From the IMG/VR virus record IMGVR_UViG_3300025301_000033, positions 1 through 39,608 of that record: 39,608 nt of DNA; one strand, 5' to 3'. The stretch comes from a virus. Within the stretch, counting starts at the first letter, position 1, and each line of letters begins with the position of its first letter. This document shows, piece after piece, positions 2,356-14,664 of this stretch. The notes beneath the pieces were generated by a model. That model was not told the DNA's origin and made no database searches. It saw only the letters and a program-made list of their open reading frames with translations. The translations under genes and the position numbers were made by a program.

Positions 2356-2559
2356 ATGACTACAGGAAAAATTAAATGGTTTAATCCAGCCAAAGGATAT
2401 GGATTTATTGAAAACGGAACAGGAGGCAAGGATGTCTTTCTGCATGTATCGGCTTTGGAAAAGGCGGGTATTGACACACTAAAAGAAGGAGAAGAGATAG
2501 AATTCGATATAGGGGAGAACAAGGGAAAAGAAAACGCCATTAACATTAAAAAGATGTAG
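2356..2559 (+). CDS. cspA: CspA-family cold-shock protein
   Basis: The 67-residue product is a full-length cold-shock domain, an OB-fold that binds single-stranded RNA and DNA. It opens with TGKIKWFNPAKGYGFI, including RNP1 (KGYGFI, residues 13-18), and has RNP2 VFLHVS (27-32). AAGGAAA lies upstream of the ATG. It is the last gene of the rightward group and converges with the SufE-like gene after 12 bases, with no terminator hairpin visible between them. In phages such proteins probably act as RNA chaperones keeping viral messages unstructured; that role is inferred. Confidence 0.95.
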   Translation: MTTGKIKWFNPAKGYGFIENGTGGKDVFLHVSALEKAGIDTLKEGEEIEFDIGENKGKENAINIKKM

Positions 2560-2571
2560 GTTTTAGGGTGT

Positions 2572-3048
2572 TTAGTCTTTGCGTGATCCGTACGATTGAA
2601 TTACTTTCAGCATCGAATGAACGCCATTTCTCCTACCAGGAGTCAAAAGATTATCAAGGCTCAAACCGTCTAATTCTTTTTCTTCAAAGGATGCTATATC
2701 GCTTCTTGTAGAATTACTGAAAACATCAGCAAGAAGGCATACCATTCCCTTTGATATCAACGCAGCTGAATCGGCCGTAAAATAAATCTTGTCATCATAT
2801 GTAAAATGTGGAACCAGCCATGTCTGTGACTGGCAACCTGGGACCTCAAACTCCGGTAATTTGAACCGCTCCGGCACGATCGCCGACTTCTTCCCGAAGT
2901 CCATCAGCCACGTGTAGCGGTCTATCATCTCATCCATGTCATTGAGCAGGTCTATGTAGGTTTTCAGCTTGCTTTGAATGGTGGATACAGGATCGACATT
3001 GGTAATCTTGCAATCCCCCAGAATCTTCATTACCTCTTCAGTCTTCAT
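2572..3048 (-). CDS. sufE: SufE-like sulfur acceptor protein
   Basis: SufE accepts persulfide sulfur from the cysteine desulfurase SufS and passes it to Fe-S cluster assembly. The 158-residue product shows the family hallmarks: RYTWLMDFGKK (44-54), VPGCQSQTW (69-77) with the catalytic Cys at position 72, ADSAALISKG (92-101), and LTPGRRNG (135-142). About 25 extra N-terminal residues precede the usual domain. All key residues are retained, so it is probably active. The start overlaps the stop of the zf-CHCC gene (TAATG). No SufS is seen in the window, so it would have to tap the host desulfurase or serve the PP-loop protein encoded upstream in the same operon. Confidence 0.88.
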   Translation of the reverse strand: MKTEEVMKILGDCKITNVDPVSTIQSKLKTYIDLLNDMDEMIDRYTWLMDFGKKSAIVPERFKLPEFEVPGCQSQTWLVPHFTYDDKIYFTADSAALISKGMVCLLADVFSNSTRSDIASFEEKELDGLSLDNLLTPGRRNGVHSMLKVIQSYGSRKD

Positions 3049-3338
3049 TACCCACTTCCTTTCAAAATTTTATTTACATAATCGTTAATGGGCTCAAGCT
3101 TGTCCTGCATCTCTTCAGATGGGGTTCTCTCTTCCTTCTGCCTGATGGAATCTTTTAACCCCATATCAAGTAACTCCTTTTCCTCCAGCATTTTGGTATA
3201 AAAATCTTTTGGCTCATATAAAAATTTTGTGTAGCAGTATTCACATACGGCCTTGTTCTCCTTGTCCACTGTGTACCACACAATAGGATGGTCATCGCCG
3301 CATGAAAATGTTTTGGTATGAATTACTTTGGGTTTCAT
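3048..3338 (-). CDS. zf-CHCC zinc-binding protein (NDUFS6-like domain)
   Basis: In this 96-residue product, residues 12-40 carry Cys13, His17-Pro18, Val20-Trp21, Cys32 and Cys35, as in SCGDDHPIVW then VCEYC. This is the signature of the zf-CHCC family, known from alphaproteobacterial proteins and from the mitochondrial complex I subunit NDUFS6. The rest is a charged helical tail specific to this protein. It lies directly upstream of the SufE-like gene with overlapping stop and start, so the two are probably co-translated. A role in Fe-S or zinc handling is suggested by family and neighbour. The family call rests on motif recognition only. Confidence 0.75.
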   Translation of the reverse strand: MKPKVIHTKTFSCGDDHPIVWYTVDKENKAVCEYCYTKFLYEPKDFYTKMLEEKELLDMGLKDSIRQKEERTPSEEMQDKLEPINDYVNKILKGSG

Positions 3339-3340
3339 TT

Positions 3341-3445
3341 TTAATATCCGGTGAGAAAATGATTAGGATATTTAATCTGCATGTATGTGACAAATACCAT
3401 GTATGATACAACGGCAAGAAATAAAACTAGAATAAAATATTTCAT
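3341..3445 (-). CDS. 34-residue membrane microprotein
   Basis: The peptide begins MKYFILVLFLAVVSYMVFVTY, a single membrane helix, and ends in a short polar tail (residues 22-34, MQIKYPNHFLTGY). Its ATG overlaps the stop of the 43-residue gene (ATGA), and its own TAA is 2 bases before the zf-CHCC start. There is no clear ribosome binding site, consistent with coupling to the upstream gene. Function unknown. Confidence 0.6.
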   Translation of the reverse strand: MKYFILVLFLAVVSYMVFVTYMQIKYPNHFLTGY

Positions 3446-3573
3446 TTTTTATTTTTCTGTTTGTACCACTTTGTGTTTTTTTTGTTCCATCGTTTGTGCC
3501 ATGCCCAGCAGCTTAGCATGCCCCCATAATGCTCGCATAGGTAATAAAAATAATTTTTAATTTTCTTGATCAT
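3442..3573 (-). CDS. 43-residue basic aromatic microprotein
   Basis: Its ATG at 3571-3573 lies inside the end of the preceding lipoprotein gene (17-base overlap) and is preceded by GGAG at a good distance. The product is rich in Lys, Trp and Tyr, beginning MIKKIKNYFYYLCEHYGG and containing CWAWHKRW. The stop overlaps the next start as ATGA. The lysine-rich tail with tryptophans could bind nucleic acid or membrane phosphates. I do not know its function. Confidence 0.65.
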   Translation of the reverse strand: MIKKIKNYFYYLCEHYGGMLSCWAWHKRWNKKNTKWYKQKNKK

Positions 3574-3862
3574 AGTTACACTCCGGTTCCATTTTTATGC
3601 ACGCAATTGTGTTCTGTGAATCATTAAAACCATCAGGCGGAATTACAAGTGGGTTTGATTTCGCCACCACTTCCTTATCTTTCCATGGCCAGTTCAACGT
3701 TGTGCACCCAGCCAGTAGGCCAAAGAGCAAAAACACTAAAATGAGTAAAATACCCGGGTACAACAGGTACCGGGAACCCCTTAAACCCCGATATAGGCGA
3801 GATATGAGCTTTTTTATTTGGCTCAATACGGTCTTTTCTTCCCCTGGGTCCCAAACGTCCAT
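3557..3862 (-). CDS. Membrane protein with internal lipobox-like site
   Basis: The start is placed at the ATG (MDVWDPGEEK) whose first bases overlap the stop of the preceding gene (TAATG), rather than at an upstream in-frame start. This gives 101 residues: a basic cytosolic head of about 30 residues, a hydrophobic stretch 32-52 ending FGLLAGC, and a polar tail with two further cysteines. LAGC is a perfect lipobox, but the long head is unusual for a lipoprotein, so it may simply be a type II membrane protein. Function unknown. Confidence 0.75.
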   Translation of the reverse strand: MDVWDPGEEKTVLSQIKKLISRLYRGLRGSRYLLYPGILLILVFLLFGLLAGCTTLNWPWKDKEVVAKSNPLVIPPDGFNDSQNTIACIKMEPECNYDQEN

Positions 3863-4053
3863 TACTCGTCTTTCTTCTCCTTGAACAGTTCCAAAGTCCA
3901 ATTGCACTGCTGGATTGCTCCTTGTAAACCATTTATAGTGGCTTCCATGTTTCTTATTGCGTCTCTCCCCTGGCTTATTTTTGCCGTAAGATCATCAAGC
4001 TGCTTTTGCAGTTCTGATTTTCTTTTTTCAACGTCTTCTTTTTCCGGTCTCAT
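3862..4053 (-). CDS. Short coiled-coil protein
   Basis: The product has 63 residues, nearly all a charged coiled coil (residues 5-45) with one Cys near residue 50 and a lysine-rich end. GAGGAGG lies 6-12 bases upstream of the ATG, formed by the last codons of the 37-residue basic gene, whose TAA overlaps this ATG. No family recognised; oligomerisation is likely from the heptads. Confidence 0.75.
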   Translation of the reverse strand: MRPEKEDVEKRKSELQKQLDDLTAKISQGRDAIRNMEATINGLQGAIQQCNWTLELFKEKKDE

Positions 4054-4166
4054 TATTTCCTCCTCAGTTTTAATCCCAAGCGGGCACGCCTTCGGTTCTT
4101 TCTCTTATTAGATCCAACCTTGCGTCTCCCCTTGTGTCTCTTTCTTTTCAGGTCCGCCTTGCTCAC
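4053..4166 (-). CDS. 37-residue hyperbasic microprotein
   Basis: A GTG start at 4164-4166 overlaps the stop of the zinc-finger gene (GTGA), and the TAA at 4053-4055 overlaps the next ATG. Twenty of 37 residues are Lys or Arg, with runs such as KRKRHKGRRK and KRKNRRRARL. Such a peptide should bind nucleic acid tightly and could condense DNA, bind ribosomal RNA, or act on a host target. No similarity is claimed. The non-ATG start and weak ribosome binding site suggest translation by coupling. Confidence 0.6.
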   Translation of the reverse strand: MSKADLKRKRHKGRRKVGSNKRKNRRRARLGLKLRRK

Positions 4167-4420
4167 GGTCCTACGTATTTCTCCTTATACTTCTCAGAAA
4201 TCTCCGTAGAGCAATACGGACCGCATAAAAAGTTAATCTTATATTCAAGAGAAGGATACCACGCCTTAGAGAGCGTATACTTCCATTCATTCCCGTCAAA
4301 CCATGTATTGCAGTTGAAGCATTTGAACTCCGGCGCCGTGCCACCTTCAGGACCCGGTCGTACATGTTTTGTATCATAGTCAACACCTTTCTTATACCCC
4401 ACAGAGGCCTTCGCATTCAT
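4163..4420 (-). CDS. Small zinc-finger-like protein
   Basis: The ATG at 4418-4420 is chosen over two earlier in-frame ATGs because GAGGAG sits 7 bases before it. The 85-residue product has FKCFNCNTWF (Cys-x2-Cys) around residues 32-41 and LCGPYC (Cys-x3-Cys) near 70, a likely four-cysteine zinc site. It overlaps the end of the PP-loop gene by 29 bases and hands on to the hyperbasic gene through GTGA. Nucleic-acid binding is possible. No named family recognised. Confidence 0.75.
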   Translation of the reverse strand: MNAKASVGYKKGVDYDTKHVRPGPEGGTAPEFKCFNCNTWFDGNEWKYTLSKAWYPSLEYKINFLCGPYCSTEISEKYKEKYVGP

Positions 4421-5477
4421 CCGCAAACTCCTCATCAAAGGTATTAAACAATTCCTTTTGCTTGGGTGGTTCTAGAAAATTCATGCTTCGAAGTGGAACA
4501 GCTTTCTTGTGCAAAAACAGTTCAGCTGTTGTATTTTTTAATCCATGTCTTATGGCGTCATCAACCTCGCATGCGTCCTCCCAATCCTTGGGGTAGTTCT
4601 TCTGCATGTTCTTCCACTGATCATTGTGGTGATAAGGACACCCTATGCACGAGGACTTGCCTGGCATAGGATGCTTTTTAATGTCACGGTACCACTGTAA
4701 GCAGTCCGCTCTTGACATCTTCATCTCGATCAATGGCCAACGGGATTCCAACCATGGAAGCCTAGCTTTCTTCATTCTCATTGCTTCATCTGTGGATATG
4801 CCAATCCATTGTTCGACGATTGTTCCTTTCTTAACCCGGTGTCGTGGTTTGATACCGAGCAACTCCCTCATCTTTTTCTGGATGGGGATAACTTTATAAT
4901 CATGTGTACATTGCCTGTAGAGCATTCCAACCTTTCCACCTGGACGTGCCGCAAACAGTGGTGGATTTGGAACCCTTCCGGCAAAAGACTTCCATTCCTC
5001 GTTGGATCCTTTCACTGGATTGGCTGCTCTAATGAGGTCTTCTCTTAAATTGCTTCTTTCCACCGTGTAAATGGGGCAAATCGTGATGGCTTTTTTGAGA
5101 TATTCCACGTGCTCATAGACAAAGGATGGTTCCCATCCAGTGTCAGCGAATATCATGCAGTCCGGTTTGTGCTTTGTCAGTCCTTCTTGAGCCATGAGTG
5201 CGAGACAGGAAGACTGTACCCCTGCGCCGAGCGATAATACACGCATTGTGGGCTCTTTTTCTTTTCCTTCCTCGTCTTTGTATACTGGCTCATGCGTTGC
5301 CGCAACCGCTGCCATGTTATTGAGCTTTCTGCGGTCAACCTTGTGAGACATTTCTTCCAAAAGCTTACGCCTTTCATATTCCATCTGCTCCTGGTTTATA
5401 GCGAATCCTGGCTTAGTGGGGCTATTGGTATAGCCTTTTTTCTTCCCTTGTTCCCTATAACCTACTTTTCTATTCAT
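4392..5477 (-). CDS. PP-loop ATP pyrophosphatase, PAPS-reductase-like
   Basis: In this 361-residue protein a disordered basic head (1-75) precedes the PP-loop domain: SLGAGVQSS at 82-90 binds the ATP phosphates, followed by IFADTGWEP (109-117). Cysteines at 190 (CTHDYK), 259, 277 and 280 (CIGC) could hold a cluster or carry sulfur. Related PP-loop enzymes (CysH, DndC, tRNA thiolases) activate a substrate with ATP before sulfur transfer or reduction. Phage members are common and of unknown function. Co-transcription with a SufE-like gene suggests sulfur transfer to a nucleic acid or nucleotide rather than sulfate assimilation. It has its own promoter at 5491-5519 and AGGAAG before the ATG. Confidence 0.85.
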   Translation of the reverse strand: MNRKVGYREQGKKKGYTNSPTKPGFAINQEQMEYERRKLLEEMSHKVDRRKLNNMAAVAATHEPVYKDEEGKEKEPTMRVLSLGAGVQSSCLALMAQEGLTKHKPDCMIFADTGWEPSFVYEHVEYLKKAITICPIYTVERSNLREDLIRAANPVKGSNEEWKSFAGRVPNPPLFAARPGGKVGMLYRQCTHDYKVIPIQKKMRELLGIKPRHRVKKGTIVEQWIGISTDEAMRMKKARLPWLESRWPLIEMKMSRADCLQWYRDIKKHPMPGKSSCIGCPYHHNDQWKNMQKNYPKDWEDACEVDDAIRHGLKNTTAELFLHKKAVPLRSMNFLEPPKQKELFNTFDEEFADECEGLCGV

Positions 5478-12842: not shown

Positions 12843-14282
12843 ATGTACAAATTTAAAACAGAGCCATACGAGCATCAAAAGGATGCACTAAAAAAATGCT
12901 GGAACAAGGAGTCATTTGCAGTGTTCGCAGAAATGGGAACAGGCAAGACCAAGATAGCGTTGGACAACGCTTGCATATTATACAACAAGGGAAAGATTGA
13001 TCGTGTTCTTGTGATAGCTCCCAAGGGAGCCTACATGACATGGGTGGAACAAGAAATTCCAGCACACGTTCCGGATTATATAGAAAAGAAAGTACTCGCC
13101 TGGAAACAGTCCACGAGCCAGAAATACAAAGCGCAATTGAAGGACATAATGGATATTCAGGATTATAAATTAAAAATTATGGTCATGAACGTGGAAGCTT
13201 TTTCCACGAAAAAAGGGACTGACTTTGCCAGATTATTCCTGATTGGTCGTTCAATGATGATCGTGGATGAAAGCACTACCATAAAAAATCCACAGGCAAA
13301 AAGAACCAAATCAATATTGAAATTGGGAAAGGATACCAAATACAGAAGAATACTGACTGGATCCCCAGTTACCCGGTCGCCCATGGATCTCTGGTCACAG
13401 ATGGATTTCCTGAACCCGGAAATACTGGAGCAATCAAGCTATTATGCATTCAGGACTCGCTATGCAATCATGGTCACGTCAAATGCAGCCGGCGGAACGC
13501 ATACATACCAGCGTATCGTCAAGTTTCAGAACCTAAAGCAACTGGGGGAGCTAGTAGCACCCCATTCATACCGCATATTGAAGAAGGACTGTCTTGACTT
13601 ACCAGATAAGGTATATACCAAACGTGAGATAGAATTAAGTGATGAACAAAAAGAGGCGTATGTGGATATGAAAGCTAACGCTATAGCTACCCTTAAAGGG
13701 CAATCCATGACTGCAGTTAACGTCCTTACCCAACTGATAAGGCTTCACCAGATAACGTGCGGTCATATGAAAACAGATGCCGGCCATACCATAGATCTTA
13801 GAAGCAACAGAATAGATGAACTAATGCAGATTTTGGGTGAGACAACCGGAAAGGTGATTATATGGGCAAATTACATACATGACATTGAAAAGATTGAAGC
13901 TAATATAGCCTTAAGCGATTTCGGAGCAGATTCTCTGTGCACTTATTACGGCGCAACACCAGCCGATAAAAGGCAGGAATGCATCCGAAAGTTCCAGGAC
14001 CCAGATTCAAAGGTAAGATTTTTTATTGGTAACACCCAAACTGGCGGATACGGTATTACCCTTACCGCCGCAAGCACGGTGATCTACTATTCAAACAATT
14101 ATGATCTGGAAAAGAGAATACAGTCAGAGGATCGTGCTCACCGCATAGGGCAGAAGAACAAGGTACTGTACATTGATCTAATGTCAAAAGGGACTGTGGA
14201 TGAAAAAATCATACAGTCCCTTCGAAGCAAGGTTAACATCGCCAAAGAAATCAGTGGCGAGGAACTTATTGCTTGGATTTAA
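12843..14282 (+). CDS. SNF2-like SF2 helicase/ATPase
   Basis: In this 479-residue protein, Walker A EMGTGKT lies at 30-36, motif II DEST at 142-145, motif III TGSP at 172-175 and motif VI RAHRIGQ at 431-437, as in SNF2-type SF2 ATPases. It is about the minimal size for two RecA-like lobes. Such phage enzymes occur with AEP primases in marine phages and may remodel protein-DNA complexes or help replication start. It is the only rightward gene in this half, driven by the bidirectional promoter. Its last 17 bases overlap hsp20 tail to tail. Confidence 0.93.
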   Translation: MYKFKTEPYEHQKDALKKCWNKESFAVFAEMGTGKTKIALDNACILYNKGKIDRVLVIAPKGAYMTWVEQEIPAHVPDYIEKKVLAWKQSTSQKYKAQLKDIMDIQDYKLKIMVMNVEAFSTKKGTDFARLFLIGRSMMIVDESTTIKNPQAKRTKSILKLGKDTKYRRILTGSPVTRSPMDLWSQMDFLNPEILEQSSYYAFRTRYAIMVTSNAAGGTHTYQRIVKFQNLKQLGELVAPHSYRILKKDCLDLPDKVYTKREIELSDEQKEAYVDMKANAIATLKGQSMTAVNVLTQLIRLHQITCGHMKTDAGHTIDLRSNRIDELMQILGETTGKVIIWANYIHDIEKIEANIALSDFGADSLCTYYGATPADKRQECIRKFQDPDSKVRFFIGNTQTGGYGITLTAASTVIYYSNNYDLEKRIQSEDRAHRIGQKNKVLYIDLMSKGTVDEKIIQSLRSKVNIAKEISGEELIAWI

Positions 14283-14664
14283 TTTTTATTTGTTTTGGTT
14301 TTTCGGATTCCGGAATTTCCCGTTTATAAGTAACTTTAAGAAGTCCATCCTTTAGCTCCGCTCCATTAATCATAATGTGTTCATGAAGCTGGAATTTTTT
14401 GATAAAACTCCTATCAGAAATTCCTTTATGCCAAAAATCTTCTGAGGTTTTTTCTTCTTTACACCCAGAAACATGTAAAGTTTGCTCTTTTACTTCAACT
14501 TTCAAATCTTTCTCAGCGAACCCTGCAACAGCAAATTCAATGACGCCTAAGTCATCTTTTTCTTTAATGTTGTATGGGGGATAAGTTGAGACTCTTTTGA
14601 AACCGTCAAAAAAGTCGTTGTGGAAACCAAGAAAATGGTTACGTATAATATCTAGCTCGTTCAT
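14266..14664 (-). CDS. hsp20: Hsp20-family small heat shock protein
   Basis: The 132-residue product has an alpha-crystallin domain: YPPYNI at the N-terminal edge (28-33), AVAGF (45-49), and the family mark AELKDGLL (102-109). The C-terminal I-x-I motif IKI (126-128) mediates oligomer assembly. These ATP-independent chaperones hold unfolding proteins. Phage versions, known in cyanophages and other marine phages, may assist virion or host protein folding. AGGAGG lies just before the ATG. It may be transcribed by late read-through and by its own promoter near 14720-14747. Confidence 0.95.
   Translation of the reverse strand: MNELDIIRNHFLGFHNDFFDGFKRVSTYPPYNIKEKDDLGVIEFAVAGFAEKDLKVEVKEQTLHVSGCKEEKTSEDFWHKGISDRSFIKKFQLHEHIMINGAELKDGLLKVTYKREIPESEKPKQIKIKSKQ

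Follow-up and report, generated by a model that had tools for sequence, protein, structure and literature searches.

Constant pairing of a SufE gene with a PP-loop gene in a phage lineage suggests the use of host sulfur to modify a nucleotide or nucleic acid

Viral SufE genes and phage genes for proteins resembling phosphoadenosine phosphosulfate (PAPS) reductase are already known, but separately. The former were reported as viral auxiliary genes in an oxygen minimum zone, where sufE was interpreted as boosting iron–sulfur (Fe-S) assembly (PMC8940887), while the latter are common in phages, in plasmids and in loci associated with CRISPR or BREX, as listed in a recent paper on Thermus phages that considers the phage proteins worth studying (PMC11437467). 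PAPS-reductase-like genes are often counted as sulfur-assimilation genes on annotation alone. Here we describe a locus in which the two kinds of gene stand together. The virus record IMGVR_UViG_3300025301_000033, analyzed over its 39,608 nucleotides (hereafter, the window), carries on its minus strand sufE (2572–3048; 158 amino acids) and, upstream of it, the gene of a PP-loop protein that is PAPS-reductase-like and belongs to PHROG 424 (4392–5477; 361 amino acids). The constant pairing of SufE with the PP-loop protein suggests that these phages draw host sulfur to modify a nucleotide or nucleic acid. In the literature searched, we found no description of an obligate SufE/PP-loop pairing with a lineage-specific N-terminal extension.

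With SufE as bait, 77 distinct viral SufE contigs were recovered from IMG/VR, and each of the 71 that were testable for an upstream PP-loop gene had this gene upstream on the same strand (71/71). With the PP-loop protein as bait and other loci fetched, 97 distinct contigs with a polymerase were collected; 30 of these continue for 2.5 kb or more past the PP-loop gene, and a full SufE match was present in 29 of the 30, while in the last one, L090, SufE is cut by the contig end. The earlier note on this DNA had proposed looking for co-occurrence in other phages, and it was found as a constant pair within the lineage. Sampling was also done by the neighboring DNA polymerase gene, polA, to avoid bait bias. 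At a polA identity of 64% or more, the PP-loop gene and SufE were present in every contig whose length allowed it, the polymerases of the pair-bearing phages differing by up to 36%. At a polA identity of 53% or less, at least 53 contigs had no SufE, and a distant PP-loop gene occurred elsewhere in only two. Within the lineage, the two genes are intact and under constraint, and their pairing is obligate.

The product of 2572–3048 is, as judged from its profile match and predicted structure, a true SufE. Its score for PF02657 is 100.7 bits, with the cut-off at 27, and its Cys72 and Arg139 align with positions 51 and 119 of E. coli SufE in matches to SufE entries of the PDB; both residues are invariant in 53 sequences. 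The AlphaFold2 (AF2) model, with a predicted local distance difference test score of 88, matched SufE 3g0m in a fold search (Z 19.2, 133 residues, root-mean-square deviation 1.8), with Z 18.3 to SufS-bound SufE and Z 8.1 to SufU. The description in the earlier note of a SufE-like protein with a catalytic Cys72 therefore holds. An enterobacterial orthologue was ruled out, as the NCBIfam equivalog PRK09296 scored 70.4 bits where 160 are needed, and the assignment is to the SufE superfamily only. The closest match in a cellular genome lies on a contig of a Planctomycetaceae metagenome-assembled genome (TMED10, L371) that also carries the PP-loop gene; this is probably phage DNA that was binned wrongly, and as a hint of a host it is weak at best. 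Because of this likely phage origin, and because the next-closest cellular matches, about 40% identical, are scattered across phyla, no host is indicated.

The PP-loop protein matches PHROG 424, 'phosphoadenosine phosphosulfate reductase', over residues 26–361 (1e-46). It does not reach the cut-off of PF01507, the PAPS reductase family (17.5 vs. 22.5 bits), and the SspD profile of PADLOC matches residues 188–313 only (8e-10, 36.8 bits). The motif SLGAGVQSS, which had been noticed earlier, is present at residues 82–90. Four candidate cysteines had been counted along with it; the family-invariant number is six: C190, C259, C277, C280, C355 and C359 are all retained in 36 family members, including those 40–48% identical, as are the SLG-G-QS, CT..YK and WIGIS.DE motifs. 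C190/C259/C277/C280 may bind a putative Fe-S cluster, and C355/C359 may serve in redox or persulfide chemistry. The C-terminal tail reads ECEGLCGV, and the form C[EF]GMCGV is common to PP-loop relatives in Pelagibacter, Salisaeta and Geobacillus phages; an N-terminal extension (within approximately residues 1–72) is confined to the SufE-bearing lineage. The only convincing solved sequence relative is PDB 21fy, 'PptA' (E 4e-4). In the AF2 model, the core is confident (blocks near 90), and the N-terminal extension and the tail are not. The fold search returned PAPS reductase (Z 11.4), adenosine phosphosulfate (APS) reductase (10.6), LarE with [4Fe-4S] (10.5), TtuA (10.1) and NcsA (10.0), the best rows being 7rge, 2oq2 and 6vpu (Z 10.8–11.4); as these matches are tied, the fold does not decide between a reductase and a thiolase. 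Position 88, an Asp in the canonical SGGxDS loop, is Gln here, as it is in E. coli CysH (SFGIQA).

Sequence comparison places both genes under purifying selection: the ratio of nonsynonymous to synonymous substitution rates was 0.064 for the PP-loop gene and 0.149 for sufE (synonymous sites being saturated in many pairs), and the catalytic positions of both proteins are invariant. Conservation is higher for the PP-loop protein than for the DNA polymerase, at 82.7% and 65.8%, respectively, in the class of greatest distance. The protein distances of the PP-loop protein and SufE are correlated with a rho of 0.58, and with polA and helicase taken out the value is 0.56 (Mantel p about 5e-4). The correlation between polA and the PP-loop protein is only 0.21, as against 0.80 between polA and helicase. 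Given the correlation within the pair and its weakness toward polA, the pair appears to be inherited as a unit separate from the replication block.

The interpretation we favor, tentatively and at somewhat less than an even chance, is a host-dependent two-protein sulfur relay in which the PP-loop enzyme thiolates a nucleotide or nucleic acid. A host cysteine desulfurase of the SufS type would load persulfide onto Cys72 of the phage SufE, which would pass the sulfur to the PP-loop enzyme, either at the predicted Fe-S site (C190/C259/C277/C280) or at the tail pair C355/C359; the enzyme would then activate a nucleotide or nucleic-acid substrate via its phosphate-binding loop and insert the sulfur. 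We infer both the service of SufE to the PP-loop enzyme and the insertion of sulfur. No cysteine desulfurase (PF00266) was detected in 20 related virus records (0/20), so that a host desulfurase is the expected sulfur source, and this absence fits the earlier proposal that the host enzyme is used. The narrower version, a phage-encoded modification system with SufE as sulfur donor to a PP-loop enzyme whose thiolation target is phage DNA or a tRNA, is unlikely; if true, it would explain what the widespread phage and plasmid genes annotated as 'PAPS reductase' do. A PP-loop gene tied to a persulfide carrier offers a way to approach the source of the sulfur, and the question of the substrate comes within reach of tests that need two small proteins and an already known desulfurase.

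Several observations weigh against the sulfur relay. Gln88, as in E. coli CysH, leans toward sulfonucleotide chemistry and away from ATP-driven thiolation, and the tail bearing C355/C359 is of low confidence in the AF2 model. Many phages and plasmids have a member of this PP-loop family but no SufE, and none of 80 contigs with distant PP-loop relatives contained SufE (0/80). The earlier note had named a PP-loop gene mostly lacking SufE in relatives as the finding that would speak against a sulfur-transfer module, and the outcome is divided: SufE always accompanies the form of about 360 amino acids, and it is absent in the wider family, both in those 80 contigs and in isolates. Among isolated phages, only three records matched SufE, all weakly and with no more than 35% identity; in two of them, MW462191 and MT836179, no PP-loop match was found near SufE in the stretches read. 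The absence of SufE at low polA identity and in the 80 contigs with other members of the PP-loop family indicates that the pairing arose once, and the simplest account of the sequences is that the lineage gained both genes once and lost neither in our sample. One event in one lineage cannot be counted as repeated coupling. In addition, a correlation with the PP-loop protein (0.57) is seen for the open reading frame (ORF) that overlaps its gene, and linkage in one recombination block could account for part of the correlation between the pair.

The main rival, which we regard as doubtful, is that SufE supplies Fe-S clusters, either the PP-loop protein's own or those of host or phage proteins generally, relieving a SufS/SufE bottleneck, while the PP-loop protein is a sulfonucleotide-reductase-like or redox enzyme that takes no sulfur from SufE. 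Sulfonucleotide reductases have a C-terminal Cys tail, which that of the phage protein resembles; PAPS and APS reductases are among the top fold matches, and Gln88 is as in CysH, but PF01507 is not reached and the tail ECGLH is not present as such. Cluster supply would also agree with the role of Fe-S assembly booster ascribed to viral sufE in the oxygen minimum zone (PMC8940887); however, a general helper would be expected to occur without the PP-loop gene, and no testable case among the 77 SufE contigs did so. It is improbable, in our estimate, that the two genes are independent and are found together only through joint acquisition and one linkage block. The single origin of the pairing and the correlation of the overlapping ORF favor such linkage, but the genes between and around the two vary while both SufE and the PP-loop gene persist. 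One of these variable genes encodes a 2-oxoglutarate (2OG)-Fe(II) oxygenase (PF13759), which lies between the pair in 25 of 63 contigs (e.g., L001:5196-5843) and is absent from the window; in the same contigs it tracks the PP-loop protein less closely (0.14) than SufE does (0.32), although n is only 21. A further account, which we consider very unlikely, makes the PP-loop protein a counter-defense or DNA-marking enzyme of mobile elements, with SufE merely improving sulfur or cluster supply in one lineage. The surroundings of the wider family hint at nucleic-acid modification or counter-defense: on rhizobial conjugative plasmids (L451, L452, L454 and L457), the gene of a PP-loop relative overlaps ardC, which encodes an antirestriction protein, with traG near in three of the four loci (a few kb off in those of Agrobacterium and Mesorhizobium); other relatives sit near ParB genes; and one plasmid ORF (L455:3479-4798), either a real fusion or a decayed gene, combines an N-terminal C5 DNA methylase segment with a complete PP-loop relative. 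The similarity to SspD, though weak, points the same way. On the other side, no Dnd, Ssp or queuosine-type enzyme is among the Pfam matches listed for a 61.7-kb relative (for its first half, 25 of the 35 families), and in Mycobacterium prophage records (H19, H23 and H24) the neighbor of the PAPS-reductase-like gene is annotated as an RNA methyltransferase, which makes RNA as possible as DNA. The common PP-loop form has no obvious sulfur gene among its neighbors.

In transcription order on the minus strand, the locus consists of the PP-loop gene, a Cys-rich ORF, small variable ORFs, the zf-CHCC gene and sufE. The earlier note had grouped the PP-loop, zf-CHCC and SufE proteins as a trio in one operon, and all three ORFs were found where it placed them, on the minus strand. 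The zf-CHCC-like gene (3048–3338; 96 amino acids) is above the PF10276 cut-off only marginally (29.1 vs. 27 bits, profile 14–37 only); C13, H17, C32 and C35 were identified by eye, and since the profile match begins at residue 16, the first ligand, Cys13, falls outside it. It is recognized at full strength in a minority of SufE-positive contigs, is absent or unrecognizable in many, and is also found elsewhere without SufE or the PP-loop gene. We thus rejected it as a fixed third member, and the unit is the SufE/PP-loop pair, not the trio. The Cys-rich ORF (4163–4438, minus strand; CxxC...CxxxC; at most 91 amino acids with a TTG start) overlaps the 3' end of the PP-loop gene and has no Pfam match; ORFs of this type were recognized in 61 of the 97 relatives. 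The same arrangement occurs on plasmid pTB1, where the gene overlapping the PP-loop relative is that of a phage zinc-finger protein (PF24623; L456:4795-5058). Two overlapping small ORFs of 63 and 116 amino acids (3557–4053, minus strand), variable cargo between the PP-loop and zf-CHCC genes, gave no convincing family match.

The zf-CHCC stop codon and the sufE start overlap by 1 base, but the PP-loop gene lies approximately 1.05 kb upstream with small ORFs in between, and a single overlapping transcript from it to sufE is therefore at most plausible. The claim that the genes have their own promoter was not borne out, promoter-like sites in a promoter/terminator scan being at chance level (7 vs. 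7.0 expected in shuffles). In the window, 42 bases separate the end of polA from the start of the PP-loop gene. At the other end, a cold-shock protein gene (2356–2559, plus strand; PF00313, 83.8 bits) is convergent with sufE at a distance of 12 bases. The window also contains an HSP20 small heat-shock protein gene (14266–14664, minus strand; PF00011), and the 61.7-kb relative carries Cpn10 as well. The genes for primase, helicase, DUF3310 and polA follow one another as they do in Pelagibacter phages of approximately 60 kb and marine relatives. The phages of the lineage are uncultured and probably marine. No close DNA match to the window was found among isolates, and the stretches read of the closest isolates by polymerase (HTVC023P, HTVC027P, 023Pt_psg01 and DSL-LC04) contain neither sufE nor the PP-loop gene. 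As relatives reach 61–70 kb, the 39.6-kb window is probably a fragment.

Compared with the SufE of the Suf system (PF02657, the partner of SufS), the phage protein shares the predicted fold and the catalytic Cys and Arg, but is paired with a PP-loop gene instead of sufS/sufBCD, in a phage without a desulfurase gene. With SspD/DndC of DNA phosphorothioation, the locus has in common a PP-loop protein and conserved cysteines, with a partial match to the SspD profile, whereas no Dnd/Ssp partner was found among the Pfam matches listed for the 61.7-kb relative and no desulfurase gene in the 20 related records. In known phosphorothioation systems, the housekeeping IscS can stand in for DndA. The [4Fe-4S] thiolases TtuA, NcsA and LarE resemble the predicted PP-loop core fold (Z about 10), but the phage protein does not belong to them by sequence and has Gln for Asp in the loop. 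CysH and APS reductase resemble the predicted core about equally (Z 10–11) and share the loop Gln and a C-terminal Cys tail; this tail is CEGLCGV in the phage and ECGLH in E. coli CysH, to which the profile match is weak. The common form of PHROG 424 has the same sequence family, the six cysteines and the CEG[LM]CGV tail, but stands without the N-terminal extension and the SufE partner, whereas the lineage of the window has both.

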